From: Comamonas terrae
Lineage (GTDB): Bacteria > Pseudomonadota > Gammaproteobacteria > Burkholderiales > Burkholderiaceae_C
Direction: 5' to 3'
Length of the DNA stretch: 64,000 nucleotides
Assembly (NCBI RefSeq): GCF_001544075.1
Contig: NZ_BCNT01000005.1
Location: 248,001 to 312,000, forward strand
Below are positions 6,242 to 39,303 of this stretch, piece after piece; the stretch's first letter is position 1; every line of letters begins with the position of its first letter. Below the pieces are notes generated by a model, which was not told the origin of the DNA, did no database searches, and was given only the letters and a program-made list of their open reading frames with translations. Both the position numbers and the translations under genes were made by a program.

Positions 6242-6961
6242 TCAATTGCTCTGCGGCCCGGCGCTCCAGAACGCCTGCAGCACGCCGGGCAGCGCCTCGA
6301 TCTGCGTGACCACCTGGTCCAGTTCCTCGGCATGCACGGCCGTGGCGAACAGCTCGGCCTCGATTTCGGTGTTGTGCGGGTGGATTTCGTGCTTTTCCAC
6401 CGTGCGCACCGGGTAGTTGGCCGCTTCCAGCAGCTCCTGCATGCCCTCGCGCACATCGGCCTGGGCGGCCTGCTGGCAGATCACGTACACATAGTAGGTG
6501 GCCTCGCTGGCATGCTCGGCCACCGGATGGCGGTTGATGTAGTTGACCACGGGGCGCAGCAAGGTGTTGCTGGCCAGCACGAACAGCGTGGCGATGCCGG
6601 CCTCGGGCAGCAGGCCCGCGCCCGCGCAGGCGCCCACGGCCGCCGAGCCCCACAGTGTGGCGGCGGTGTTCAGCCCCGTGATGTTGGCACCCTCCTTCAT
6701 GATGGCGCCGGCGCCGAGAAAGCCCACGCCGGAGACCACATAGGAGATCACGCGCGTGGCGCCATCCGCGCCCGAGACACGCATGGCCAGGTCCACGAAC
6801 ACGGCCGCGCCCACGGCCACCAGGGTGTTGGTGCGCAGGCCCGCCGTACGCTGGCGTATCTGGCGCTCCAGGCCGATGATGCTGCCACAGACAAAGGCCA
6901 CGAGGAGGCACAGCACCGTGTTCAGCGTGGCCAGCAGATGGAAGTTCTGTAGGGATTGCAT
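6242..6961 (-). CDS. MgtC/SapB family membrane protein
   Basis: A 239-residue inner-membrane protein. The N-terminal MgtC domain (about residues 8-140) has four or five hydrophobic helices and the family hallmarks GSIIGLERQ, GLRTNTLVAVG and GVGFLGAGAIMKEG. The C-terminal 90 residues form a soluble ACT-like domain (YYVYVICQQ onward). MgtC proteins are induced at low magnesium and, in Salmonella, affect F1Fo ATPase and virulence. It lies 108 bp downstream of mgtA on the same strand, as in the Salmonella mgtCB arrangement but with the order reversed. That linkage supports a role in magnesium starvation. Confidence 0.9.
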   Translation of the reverse strand: MQSLQNFHLLATLNTVLCLLVAFVCGSIIGLERQIRQRTAGLRTNTLVAVGAAVFVDLAMRVSGADGATRVISYVVSGVGFLGAGAIMKEGANITGLNTAATLWGSAAVGACAGAGLLPEAGIATLFVLASNTLLRPVVNYINRHPVAEHASEATYYVYVICQQAAQADVREGMQELLEAANYPVRTVEKHEIHPHNTEIEAELFATAVHAEELDQVVTQIEALPGVLQAFWSAGPQSN

Positions 6962-7069: not shown

Positions 7070-9829
<2,760 letters not shown>

Positions 9830-9840
9830 GGCTGCCTCCC

Positions 9841-10179
9841 TCAGTGCAGGGCCTTGGCGGAGGTGCCGGAACGTGCCCACGGCAGCCGTGCCAGCCAGGG
9901 GCGCCGTGCCTCGGCGCGCAGCTGTTCGCAGATGCGGCTGCGCTGCTCGCGGGTCAGCAGGGACAGGGCATCGGCGCGCTGGCGCGTGCTGAGTTGGGCC
10001 ATGGCGCCGGCCATCAGCGGGGTGGCGTGGCGGTCGGCCAGGTGGCGCAGCACATCGGCGCGGCGCTCGGCCAGCGCCGAACTCACGGCATGCGTGAGGC
10101 CATGGTGGCGGGAGTCGACAGAGAGGAAAGATTCGGGGCGGCTGCGCTTGAGCACACGCAGCCAGGCGAGGCGTTGCAT
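9841..10179 (-). CDS. Small soluble protein, MgtE-N-like helical repeats (function unknown)
   Basis: A 112-residue protein with no signal peptide or membrane helix. It starts at the second of two close ATGs because GGAG is seven bases before it. Residues 30-92 are amphipathic helices with the rhythm of the MgtE N-terminal superhelix (for example QLSTRQRADALSLLTREQRSRI, where short helices alternate with L/R turns). That likeness is my reading, not a database hit. The gene ends 11 bp before mgtA and follows the leader ORFs. A regulatory partner or magnesium-sensing accessory of MgtA is therefore plausible but unproven. Codon use is like that of neighbouring genes. Confidence 0.7.
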   Translation of the reverse strand: MQRLAWLRVLKRSRPESFLSVDSRHHGLTHAVSSALAERRADVLRHLADRHATPLMAGAMAQLSTRQRADALSLLTREQRSRICEQLRAEARRPWLARLPWARSGTSAKALH

Positions 10180-10231
10180 GGGCATACTCCTTCGGGGATG
10201 GCCCGGGGAGCCGCCCGCCGCTGCTACGGCA

Positions 10232-10360
10232 TCAGGCGCGCAACCCCGGGGCGGGGTTCCAGTCTGTGCGCGCTGCCTTCAGGCCAACACGCACGCCAAC
10301 AGGCTTGCGGTTGCGCGCCGCCGGGGGCGCGCCGCAAGATCGACTCGGGTCGGGATCCAT
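10232..10360 (-). CDS. MgtL-like leader peptide ORF upstream of the mgtA operon
   Basis: A 42-codon ORF in the 5' leader of the mgtA operon. It has a good ribosome-binding site (AAGGAA, five bases before ATG) and begins MDPDPSRSCGAPP. E. coli and Salmonella MgtL begins MEPDPTPLP. There the acidic-Pro alternation right after the start is known to destabilise ribosomes when Mg2+ is low, which lets RNA polymerase read on into mgtA. Here residues 2-5 are DPDP at the same place. A 7-bp stem (GCGCGCC/GGCGCGC, 10313-10332) and a 6-bp stem (AACCCC/GGGGTT, 10242-10258) lie within the ORF and could be exposed or hidden by ribosome position. It ends 52 bp before the next gene. Confidence 0.55.
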   Translation of the reverse strand: MDPDPSRSCGAPPAARNRKPVGVRVGLKAARTDWNPAPGLRA

Positions 10361-10412
10361 ACGTGTTCCTTGCAAGAAAAGTGGATGAAGCGCGGGACGG
10401 CGGTGAAGCCGT

Positions 10413-10640
10413 TCAGCGAACGAAGCGGCCTTGCGTGCTCAGAAAGCTGCGGATGCGGTGCGTGGGCCAGCTGGTGCGGGCATCGAGTTCGCGCGTCTGC
10501 TCCAGGGCCTGCGGAACCGTTGCCGCGGCCTCTGGCGGGTGGGATGTGCCGCCCGCGCGGCCCGCATGGCTGGACGGGGCACACAGCAGCAGGCGCAGGG
10601 GACGCAGCTGGCGCAGAGAATGGGTCAGGCGGTGGCTCAT
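10413..10640 (-). CDS. Small basic protein of unknown function in the mgtA leader
   Basis: A 75-codon ORF starting MSHRLTHSL with AGGAG six bases before the ATG. Codon use is CTG/CGC-rich, as in real genes of this window. The protein is basic with no clear fold: an Arg/Leu-rich N-terminus, a Pro/Ala-rich centre (HPPEAAATVP) and an Arg-rich end (RIRSFLSTQGRFVR). It lies between the distal promoter and the MgtL-like ORF, 52 bp upstream of the latter. It may be a true small protein, another regulatory leader, or chance. I recognise no family. Confidence 0.45.
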   Translation of the reverse strand: MSHRLTHSLRQLRPLRLLLCAPSSHAGRAGGTSHPPEAAATVPQALEQTRELDARTSWPTHRIRSFLSTQGRFVR

Positions 10641-10920
10641 GGCGTTCTCCTCGGCGGCTAATGCCTGTTGAAGGGAGCGGGCCAGGCGGCAGCGCTGCAC
10701 AAGCGTTCTCGCGCGGTCACGGCTCGGCTCGCTCGAAGCGGGAACGGACTGCGGCGCGAAAAATCTCAGTGACGGGCAGAGCTTGCGGGTTTTCAGGTGC
10801 TACCTGTGCTGCGCACGGCAGGACAGCTCGGGCGCAGACAAGGAAAACAGCAAGATGCGAAGGTCGCGGGGCAAGGGATGCGGGGCGGTCGACGACGGCT
10901 CCCGATCCAGGGGGAGTCTG

Positions 10921-10986
10921 TCAGTCGGCCAGCAGCGCAGCCATTGCGGCCTGCGTTGAATCACTGGTTGAACTGGCACTGTCCAC
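10921..10986 (-). CDS. Tiny ORF (21 codons) with a segment matching MgtA
   Basis: The first ORF after the predicted promoter. It has a GTG start with AGGAG seven bases upstream, and the predicted transcription start lies about 20 bases before the start codon. The product is Ser/Asp-rich and ends with STQAAMAALLAD. MgtA residues 572-581 read STQAAIAALL, so 9 of 10 residues match. The codons differ at six positions, all third bases, which looks more like conserved coding than recent duplication. It is too short to be sure; a chance match in an alanine-rich helix is possible. Confidence 0.35.
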   Translation of the reverse strand: MDSASSTSDSTQAAMAALLAD

Positions 10987-11015
10987 GTGGGGACTCCTGA
11001 AATTGCGAAGCCTTG

Positions 11016-11045
11016 ATTATCGCCGTTTCGCCATCCTAGGGTCAA
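11016..11045 (-). promoter_or_regulatory. Predicted sigma70 promoter for the mgtA leader transcript
   Basis: TTGACC (-35, 11045-11040) and GATAAT (-10, 11021-11016) are 18 bp apart on the minus strand. The -35 overlaps the stop codon of the fusion gene upstream. The promoter drives toward the small leader ORFs and mgtA. The stretch 10186-11015 has no other strong minus-strand promoter that I can see. Confidence 0.5.
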
Positions 11046-12793
11046 CCCTGAATTGTGTCAGCCCGTCTCAGAAAGCCGTGCAGGATCAGGGCCTGCGCCG
11101 CGTAATAGGTGGCCAGCACGCCGACCGCAGCCCAGGGCAGGGGCTGGACGAAGCGGTTGATGGCCAGCAGCGAGTCGCTGAGCATGAACAGGCTGGCGCC
11201 CGCCGCCACCAGCAGCGAGGCCGCGTTGCGCAGCACGCGGTGCCGGCCCCAGGCCTGGGCGGCCATGGTGGCGATCACGCCCACATAGGCCAGCACGGGC
11301 AGGCGCAGGGCCGTGGGCAGGCCGCCCAGCCACAGCAGCGCATACATGGCCGCGGCGACCAGCGATATGCAGGCAACGGCCCTGCGGCTGGCCAGCCAGG
11401 GCGCATCGCTGCGCAGCAGGGCAATGTAGCAGAAGTGGGCCAGCAGAAAGCTGACCAGGCCGGGGATGAAAAAGCCCTCGAACATGAGAAACGCGTCGCC
11501 GGCCAGTGAAAAAAACAGAGCGCCTGCCGCAATCCATACCTGGTTTTTGGCGTGATTCCCATTGGATTTCAAGAAGGAGCGAGCGCTGGCTGCTAGGCAA
11601 AAAAGAGCAAACACCATGGCCAGCGGCTTGAAGAGCTGGTGCCATCCGGTCAGGCCCAGGGCCGCGGTGGCCGTGGCCAGTGCGCCGCTTTGCAGCATCA
11701 GTGCCAGCCAGGGGCTGATGCGCCCCTGCATGGCGGCGCACAGCGTCCACTGGCTGGCGAGCAGCACGCCGAACCAGAGCAGGTTGTGGGCCAGCGGCGC
11801 CTGGTCGGCCTGCCAGAGGAAGGCGGCCGTACCGGCGACCAGCACGGCGAACTGCAGCGCAGAGAACCAGCGCAGGCCGGCCGGCATGGCCGGCGCATAG
11901 CGCACGCGGTGCTCGTCGAGGTCGAAGGCCGGCCTGGGAAAGCGGCGGGCCACGTCGGCCGGCCGCCAGCCCGGCGGCTTGAACCAGACCCGCAGCTTGT
12001 CGCCCAGGCGGCGCGCATGCCAGCTGTCGTGCGCGAGCTGGCGGTAGACCGCCACATTGGCCCACAGCGGGTCCCAGCTCCTGAGCAGGCCGCGCGTGCC
12101 GTAGACGCAGGGCTCCTCGTCGTCCTCGGTCTTGTAGGTGCCGAAGAGGCGGTCCCAGACGATGAGAATGCCGCCGTAGTTCTTGTCGAGATAGCGGTCG
12201 TTGACGGCGTGGTGCACGCGGTGGTTGCTGGGCGCGCAGAACCAGCGGTCGAACCAGCCCAGGCGGCCCACCTGCTCGGTATGCACCCAGAACTGGTAGA
12301 GCAGGTCGACCAGCCCGACCACGGCAAACACCAGCGGCGGCACGCCGGCCAGGGCCATGGGCAGGTAGAAGATCCAGCCCAGCAGCGCGCCCGAGCTGGT
12401 CTGGCGCAGCGCGGTGGAGAGGTTGTAGTCCTGGCTCTGGTGGTGCACGGCATGGGCCGCCCACAGCACGCCCACCTCATGGCCCATGCGGTGCAGCCAG
12501 TAGTAGCAGAAATCGTAGAACACCAGGGCCAGCAGCCAGCCGGGCAGGCTGAGCCAGAAGGCGTCGGCCTGCACCAGTGCCAGGTGCCCGGCGACAAAGG
12601 TGTAGAGGCCCAGCGTCAGCAGCTTGGTGAAGACCGCGCTGGTCTGGCTCAGCACGCCCAGGTTCAGCGAGGCGATGGCATCGTCCAGCCGGTAGGCGCT
12701 GCGCCCGCGCCGCATGCCGACGGCCCACTCGACGGCCATGAGGATGAAGAACACCGGCGTGGCCAGGACGATGACTTGGCTGGGGGAGAGCAT
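11042..12793 (-). CDS. Fatty acid hydroxylase/sterol desaturase fused to a YhhN (lysoplasmalogenase-like) domain
   Basis: A 583-residue integral membrane protein with two domains. Residues 1-300 are a fatty acid hydroxylase (di-iron) domain with histidine boxes HRMGH (101-105), HAVHH (114-118), H171 and HRVHH (191-195). Residues about 385-573 match the YhhN/TMEM86 fold, including FKPLAM and SLAGDAFLM. In animals, alkylglycerol monooxygenase (same hydroxylase superfamily) and TMEM86B lysoplasmalogenase (same YhhN family) both cleave ether lipids. The fusion therefore suggests an ether-lipid breakdown enzyme, which is inference. The start at 12793 gives a clean N-terminal helix; the longer frame upstream overlaps the divergent gene. 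An AT-rich patch at about 11540-11620 resembles a local terminator repeat. Confidence 0.92.
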   Translation of the reverse strand: MLSPSQVIVLATPVFFILMAVEWAVGMRRGRSAYRLDDAIASLNLGVLSQTSAVFTKLLTLGLYTFVAGHLALVQADAFWLSLPGWLLALVFYDFCYYWLHRMGHEVGVLWAAHAVHHQSQDYNLSTALRQTSSGALLGWIFYLPMALAGVPPLVFAVVGLVDLLYQFWVHTEQVGRLGWFDRWFCAPSNHRVHHAVNDRYLDKNYGGILIVWDRLFGTYKTEDDEEPCVYGTRGLLRSWDPLWANVAVYRQLAHDSWHARRLGDKLRVWFKPPGWRPADVARRFPRPAFDLDEHRVRYAPAMPAGLRWFSALQFAVLVAGTAAFLWQADQAPLAHNLLWFGVLLASQWTLCAAMQGRISPWLALMLQSGALATATAALGLTGWHQLFKPLAMVFALFCLAASARSFLKSNGNHAKNQVWIAAGALFFSLAGDAFLMFEGFFIPGLVSFLLAHFCYIALLRSDAPWLASRRAVACISLVAAAMYALLWLGGLPTALRLPVLAYVGVIATMAAQAWGRHRVLRNAASLLVAAGASLFMLSDSLLAINRFVQPLPWAAVGVLATYYAAQALILHGFLRRADTIQG

Positions 12794-39147: not shown

Positions 39148-39222
39148 TGGTGCGCGATACATGGATCGAACATGTGACCCCTGCCGTGTGAAGGCAGTGC
39201 TCTACCGCTGAGCTAATCGCGC
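39148..39222 (-). tRNA. tRNA-Val (CAC)
   Basis: A 75-nt cloverleaf including encoded CCA. The acceptor stem GCGCGAT pairs with ATCGCGC; the anticodon stem is CTGCC/GGCAG with loop TTCACAC, anticodon CAC (39188-39190). It is the second gene of a tandem pair; the body is identical to the first copy except for the acceptor stem. Confidence 0.95.
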
Positions 39223-39228
39223 GAAACC

Positions 39229-39303
39229 TGGTGGGTGATACATGGATCGAACATGTGACCCCTGCCGTGTGAAGGCAGTGCTCTACCGCTGAGCTAATCA
39301 CCC
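39229..39303 (-). tRNA. tRNA-Val (CAC)
   Basis: A 75-nt cloverleaf including encoded CCA. The acceptor stem GGGTGAT pairs with ATCACCC; the anticodon CAC is at 39269-39271. It lies 6 bp upstream of the other tRNA-Val and shares the same terminator. Confidence 0.95.

Follow-up and report, generated by a model that had tools for sequence, protein, structure and literature searches.

The question raised by this locus is whether a short open reading frame, ORF2, in the 5' leader of a bacterial mgtA gene encodes a regulatory peptide comparable to MgtL of enterobacteria. Excerpts of a published account describe how, in E. coli, ribosomes are lost at the EPDP motif in MgtL when Mg2+ is low, upon which mgtA is transcribed, and how efficient translation of the leader represses mgtA, with Rho being invoked (PMC11282234). 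The features considered here are collected in Table 1; the window is the whole stretch of 64,000 nucleotides that was analyzed.

Table 1. Coordinates of the leader elements and genes discussed in the text, numbered by position in the window.
Feature	Position	Strand	Remarks
Sigma-70-like promoter TTGACC-18-GATAAT	11016..11045	minus	sequence pattern
ORF0, 21 codons, VDSASSTSDSTQAAMAALLAD	10921..10986	minus	GTG start; AGGAG before it
ORF1, 75 codons, WPTHRIRSFL near C terminus	10413..10640	minus	variable N-terminal part
Leader Shine-Dalgarno sequence AAGGAA	10366..10371	minus	five bases 5' of ORF2 ATG
ORF2, MDPDP leader peptide	10232..10360	minus	ATG at 10360, TGA 10234-10232; 42 codons plus stop
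ORF2 codons 2-5 (Asp-Pro-Asp-Pro)	10346..10357	minus	protein invariant, DNA silently variable (16 genus loci)
Predicted antisequestor, last ORF2 codons	10235..10251	minus	complementary to sequestor 5' arm
Predicted sequestor 5' arm (anti-Shine-Dalgarno)	10202..10216	minus	fold prediction
Predicted sequestor 3' arm	10180..10197	minus	contains ORF3 Shine-Dalgarno sequence AAGGAG (10192-10187)
ORF3, weakly MgtE_N-like small protein, 112 aa	9841..10179	minus	start at second ATG
mgtA, Mg2+-importing P-type ATPase	7070..9829	minus	TIGR01524; 60% identical to E. coli MgtA over 917 residues
mgtC	6242..6961	minus	Pfam MgtC
Two tandem tRNA genes	39151-39303	minus	Rfam

The translation of ORF2, MDPDPSRSCGAPPAARNRKPVGVRVGLKAARTDWNPAPGLRA, begins MDPDPSRSC. 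The preliminary description had proposed a frame of 42 codons with AAGGAA five bases before its ATG, which the coordinates bear out, and a spacing of 52 bp to the first structural gene, which holds if ORF3 begins at its second ATG (10179), as assumed for the gap of 52 nt measured here from the ORF2 stop. A form of 47 codons, starting at an in-frame TTG upstream of this ATG, was set aside because the conserved Shine-Dalgarno sequence suits the ATG. As in leaders of the MgtL type, the gene for a Mg2+ transporter carries in its 5' leader a short ORF with a ribosome-binding site, and the acidic-Pro alternation at residues 2 to 5 is maintained by selection at 16 loci of the genus. The window's own 4.7-Mb genome has two matches to ATG-[DE]P-[DE]P, versus five to the pattern read backwards; the second of the two opens a frame of eight codons, with no Shine-Dalgarno sequence in the adjacent bases read. 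Conservation and gene context provide stronger evidence than this chance count.

For conservation, mgtA was sought in 53 genomes of the genus and 399 genomes of the family, which we take to be Comamonas and Comamonadaceae. Retention of the ATG, the ribosome-binding site, and codons 2 to 5 in related mgtA leaders, which the preliminary description had put forward as a check, is found throughout the genus set, with Shine-Dalgarno sequence, ATG, and Asp-Pro-Asp-Pro present at 16 of 16 loci having an mgtA at least 74% identical and an available upstream region. Summed over pairs of these loci, codons 2 to 5 hold 195 silent differences and no replacement (pS 0.61, pN 0), whereas pN/pS from codon 10 to the end of ORF2 is 0.89. 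Because of this difference, the sequences indicate that the start of ORF2, comprising Shine-Dalgarno sequence, ATG, and Asp-Pro-Asp-Pro, is under selection at the level of amino acids in the genus and that the remainder is little constrained. The 27 loci found by pattern (see below) hold MDPDP by construction and were kept out of the selection test unless the mgtA search also found them.

Variation in the peptide start is detectable among other mgtA copies of the genus, of which two have MDPAP, one MDLEPDP, and one MDPSS. In two copies an MEPGP start lies some 6 kb upstream, ahead of HlyD/RND-like genes, and a second mgtA copy of genome G007 has MEPDP at a similar distance (about 6 kb); at nine genus mgtA loci, no such leader occurs in the stretch searched upstream. 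That stretch was 1300 nt, shorter at contig ends (L047, L061, L072, L077), and within it MDPDP is present at 8 of 84 further family mgtA loci, most of the 84 having no such leader there; the 84 include 21 P-type ATPases of greater divergence (45-49% identity). Seven family loci read further upstream yielded three more leaders: one starts MDPDP and precedes HlyD-RND-like genes followed by mgtA, and the others start MDSDP and MDPAS. Five weak filter matches (L053, L058, L081, L085, L114) were not scored as leaders, and a gene fragment without a start (L020) and an mgtA of another type (L117) were excluded from the mgtA tallies. The mgtA of L239 matches in several separate pieces and is possibly a broken gene. 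In L253 (MEPDP) and L254 (MDSDP), the leader lies about 6 kb upstream of mgtA.

The gene context of the leader extends beyond mgtA. A Shine-Dalgarno sequence followed by MDPDP occurs at 27 places in 25 of the 399 family genomes, and at 23 of these a magnesium-related gene lies within 1.5 kb downstream, encoding MgtA (12), MgtE (5), an NRMT-like Nramp protein (4), or MgtC (2), which belong to four unrelated families. In these 399 genomes the backward-read control pattern, counted by eye, had about 70 matches, and because it matched more often than MDPDP itself, the raw count gives no enrichment and the case rests on gene context. When the same residues were placed in another order (MPDPD), two matches were found in 190 family genomes, both within longer genes; MDPDP is present in 10 of those 190, always with a magnesium-related gene downstream (about 6 kb on in G183). 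The assignment of the Nramp proteins follows from L131, whose best match is EleNRMT, 7qia (E 1.8e-48; next entry 8.5e-16), a magnesium transporter (PMC8806188, in part), and the other three are 82-92% identical to it. Since its start is kept in the genus and precedes other magnesium-related genes, an MgtL-like leader peptide, as the preliminary description proposed, is well supported.

Other neighbors of the leader were also recorded, for which the HlyD label comes from Pfam and the RND label from the look of the sequence. The leader of L142 precedes HlyD-RND-like and outer-membrane-type genes, with mgtA about 6 kb on; those of L123, L124, and L133 precede HlyD and RND-like genes, an ORF3-like gene, and a protein without a Pfam match, respectively. 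Acidic-Pro leaders (MDPDP, MDPDPDPDPDP, MEPGP) likewise head HlyD/RND-like genes in L235 and, with mgtA following further along, in L234, L251, and L252. A secreted-type protein of about 230-260 aa lies between leader and mgtA (L130, L134, L140, L141) or MgtE (L119), or stands alone (L133), and has no Pfam match in L119, L130, L133, or L134. The leader is immediately preceded by an mgtC-like gene in L142, where both share a strand, and in L137, where the gene is oriented oppositely.

Beyond the family, the strict pattern is found in 5 of 399 genomes of the order, four of them belonging to the family of the window; at the fifth match, in another family, an MDPDPCSSG leader (L145) lies between NRMT-like and, by eye, porin-like genes. 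A looser pattern is found in 6 of 350 genomes of the class, and only that of L231, of the Stenotrophomonas type, stands before a magnesium gene, with the leader preceding ORF3-mgtA. Among named mgtA loci (the best 80 of at least 585 relatives), the filter finds such a leader at 10: Delftia (the same place as L009), an Acidovorax MAG, Cupriavidus necator, five Stenotrophomonas, Pseudoxanthomonas, and Sapientia, the last with MEPDP. None of the Pseudomonas-named mgtA loci among these 80 has one.

The gene directly behind the leader is less readily assigned. MgtE_N matches 11 of 16 ORF3 members at E 0.05 or better (best 1.5e-5), and because a profile of ORF3 matches both MgtE (0.005) and FliG (0.006), its likeness to MgtE_N may be a likeness to a type of fold. 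ORF3 also precedes Stenotrophomonas mgtA and one mgtC (L121). From position and strand, mgtC of the window probably belongs to the same operon as mgtA.

When these results are placed beside known systems, MgtL of E. coli and Salmonella offers a set of shared traits for discussion: both are short ORFs in an mgtA leader with a Shine-Dalgarno sequence just upstream, the MgtA proteins are 60% identical, and the start M-[DE]-P-D-P is common to both by eye, in keeping with the acidic-Pro-Asp-Pro pattern of MgtL that the preliminary description had seen at residues 2 to 5. This shared start may reflect either common descent or convergence. In contrast to MgtL, ORF2 is longer, with no common stretch seen by eye beyond that start; a small MgtE_N-like gene separates leader and mgtA here, two more conserved ORFs lie upstream, the output is predicted to be sequestration of the Shine-Dalgarno sequence of the next ORF, and the leader is also used before MgtE, NRMT-like, and MgtC genes. 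In this predicted output the locus would resemble mgtQ of Salmonella, situated between mgtC and mgtB and described in extracts of PMC8092293 as an acidic, abort-prone ORF acting on a hairpin-held ribosome-binding site before mgtB, which is released by how the ORF is read; the hairpin here is predicted only, and mgtQ differs in having 8 codons, one conserved Pro, no DPDP, and a different transporter. A long leader with several short ORFs is also known from the magnesium-related operon mgtCBR of Salmonella, with mgtM and mgtP, where the signals are, in the portions of PMC3641672 drawn on, ATP and proline, whereas the companion peptide here is marked by the conserved motif WPTHRIR. The M-box (ykoK) is likewise a single device serving CorA, MgtA, MgtE, and Nramp-related genes (PMC4072509, in part), but it is a metal-binding RNA and not a peptide, and no Rfam match to it is present here. 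A motif reported for Thioalkalivibrio mgtE is unrelated (PMC11109978, in part).

The output of the leader can be approached through predicted RNA structure. A hairpin predicted 3' of the leader stop pairs with the Shine-Dalgarno sequence of the next ORF and recurs across loci. Summed over 26 representatives, the folding energy of this sequestor is -634 versus -447 (sd 15) in 60 shuffles and the pairing of the Shine-Dalgarno sequence is 20.8 versus 14.9 (sd 0.8), both beating every shuffle, with pairing falling below the shuffles in L079, L139, and L019. The bases beside the Shine-Dalgarno sequence pair through several pair types across clades (23 of 24 representatives used), where pairing as such is by construction because the pairs come from each sequence's own fold. 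The last third of the leader is, in turn, complementary to the 5' arm of the sequestor: over 23 hand-chosen representatives, with the arm of L001 set by hand, the summed duplex energy is -504 versus -424 (sd 11.5), a value reached by none of 400 null sums, and the complementary stretch lies at 0.77 of the ORF versus 0.49; the combined p-values (Fisher 2e-8; Wilcoxon 8e-7 for position) are optimistic because the representatives are related. Locus by locus this signal is weak, 8 of 23 being singly at or below 0.05, and the position bias is missing in L138 and L137. At one selection step, 13 of 54 leaders were left out, eight without a suitable next start and five with a Shine-Dalgarno sequence not paired upstream.

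The timing of folding may be decisive for such a switch. As long as the 3' arm is still to be transcribed, the end of the leader and the 5' arm form 13-23 pairs at all 16 genus loci. For the window, the minimum-energy fold of an 80-nt segment from antisequestor to ORF3 contains the antisequestor pairing (-37.8), compared with -21.8 for 45 nt holding only the sequestor, and the fold of the full leader retains the sequestor. At equilibrium, opening of the Shine-Dalgarno sequence by the free leader is modest, averaging 0.26 over 28 loci versus 0.19 when the leaders are shuffled; none of 40 null sums reaches the native one, and the gain is nil for the window's own leader (p 0.80). Because the full-leader fold keeps the sequestor and the equilibrium gain is small, switching would be required to be co-transcriptional, that is, kinetic. 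The preliminary description had instead looked to GC hairpins inside ORF2 as the switch; such hairpins do exist, but they are not supported as a general one, since that over codons 9-18 is strong in eight Comamonas-type loci and L007 and weak in the Delftia-type loci L008-L013, from which the strong form is missing. A hairpin over codons 3-7, with seeming covariation by eye, was also rejected, as 930 of 1000 permutations lie at or below the native energy. The folds thus make it more likely that the switch is the hairpin after the stop codon.

On this basis, ORF2 probably encodes a leader peptide that regulates in the manner of MgtL, with a predicted Mg2+-dependent drop-off at DPDP coupled to a Shine-Dalgarno hairpin switch. 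With enough Mg2+, the ribosome would get through DPDP to the stop codon and cover the end of ORF2, the sequestor hairpin would close, and ORF3-mgtA-mgtC would be poorly translated. At low Mg2+, the ribosome would be destabilized while making Asp-Pro-Asp-Pro and drop off, leaving the freed end of ORF2 to pair with the 5' arm, so that the Shine-Dalgarno sequence would be released and the operon translated; it is conceivable that lost translation additionally lets Rho stop the transcript. We infer an anatomy that combines an MgtL-like peptide with an mgtQ-like output.

The same peptide sensor could also be read out through Rho-dependent termination in the leader, as in Salmonella mgtA, with the hairpin after the stop being secondary. 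Rho belongs to published mgtA and corA models (extracts of PMC11282234 and PMC11552253), and no intrinsic terminator was found at 9700-11150, but the recurrence of a hairpin centered on the Shine-Dalgarno sequence, with differing sequences across clades, points to translation as the controlled step, and an extract of PMC11552253 states that no such termination was detected for E. coli mgtA. The two outputs can coexist, and termination by Rho as the main output is regarded as rather unlikely but still a serious candidate. It could further be speculated that the leader senses charging of proline tRNA by ordinary attenuation, with no destabilization of the ribosome, because the proline codons of mgtP respond to proline limitation, as does mgtA (PMC3641672, in part), and the variants MDPAP and MEPGP retain their prolines while losing Asp4. 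However, the fixed Pro codons number only two and lie apart, Asp varies no more than Pro among the genus loci, MDPAS and MDPSS lose Pro5, MDSDP loses Pro3, and every leader listed has Asp or Glu at residue 2, partly as an effect of the search pattern, all of which makes proline sensing improbable. Natural leaders with DPAS, DPSS, EPGP, or DPAP in place of DPDP speak against the MgtL-like reading, as do the many mgtA copies lacking such a leader in the stretch searched; the extended leaders MDPDPDPDPDP in L123 and MDPDPEPEPEPEP before MgtE in L138 favor the acidic-Pro alternation as the feature that would be read.

Sensing need not involve a peptide at all, and Mg2+-binding leaders such as the M-box do precede the same transporter families (PMC4072509, in part). 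A riboswitch of that kind, with ORF2 being incidental, is nevertheless very improbable here, given that the region has no Rfam match even at E 1, to the M-box or another magnesium RNA, and that selection acts on the amino acids of codons 2 to 5. Conservation of the Shine-Dalgarno sequence and ATG would equally suit a working small protein, but lengths of 16 to 58 residues among 54 leaders, together with genus sequences that are nearly unconstrained from codon 10, render that reading scarcely credible.

The leader upstream of the MgtL-like peptide may hold additional elements. A pair similar to the promoter, TTGAC[CG]...[CGT]A[CT]AAT, occurs at the same place in 12 loci picked for ORF0, one of them an mgtC locus. 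ORF0 is conserved mainly at the nucleotide level: right after the promoter, GTGGACAGTGCCAGTTCAACCAGTGA is nearly unchanged in nucleotides across the genus and several other loci, and its core is found at a single place in the genome of the window. ORF0 has no Pfam match and may represent an RNA or peptide element in its own right. ORF1 represents a type of companion, with W[PTS]T[HRL]R[ILV]R near its C terminus, found just upstream of the leader in many family loci, at those of MgtA, MgtC, and NRMT-like genes, and not seen at the MgtE-type or Stenotrophomonas-type loci looked at. In the 16 genus loci the motif is constrained (pN/pS 0.35) and the N-terminal part is not (0.79). ORF1 has only sub-threshold Pfam matches, and the 95-codon frame containing it has no NCBIfam match. 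Because arrest peptides typically have a variable start and a conserved C-terminal motif, it is possible that ORF1 is a second sensor, as a candidate arrest peptide, or else a small protein.

It can be hypothesized from this arrangement that the lineage runs its magnesium regulon on ribosome stability, by means of a portable cassette made up of a WPTHRIR-type peptide, a DPDP abort block, and a hairpin sequestering the Shine-Dalgarno sequence. This cassette would be fitted to unrelated transporters (P-type ATPase and NRMT, plus MgtE in a form lacking the WPTHRIR peptide) and to MgtC, with the WPTHRIR peptide acting as a second nascent-chain sensor in the same leader. We put this forward as a tentative extension, conceivable but falling somewhat short of probable.

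In conclusion, magnesium control via ribosome instability at acidic-proline codons has been described for enterobacteria (extracts of PMC11282234 and PMC11552253), and an earlier description of this leader outside them was not found in the openly licensed literature, among the matches listed. If true, such control would be a more general regulatory principle, with the same code selected in the genus, placed before several unrelated magnesium gene families, and present at some Stenotrophomonas, Pseudoxanthomonas, and Cupriavidus mgtA genes. The natural variants DPDP, EPDP, DPAP, EPGP, DPAS, DPSS, DPDPDPDPDP, and DPDPEPEPEPEP would allow this code to be measured, and the leader would offer a means of recognizing magnesium genes.
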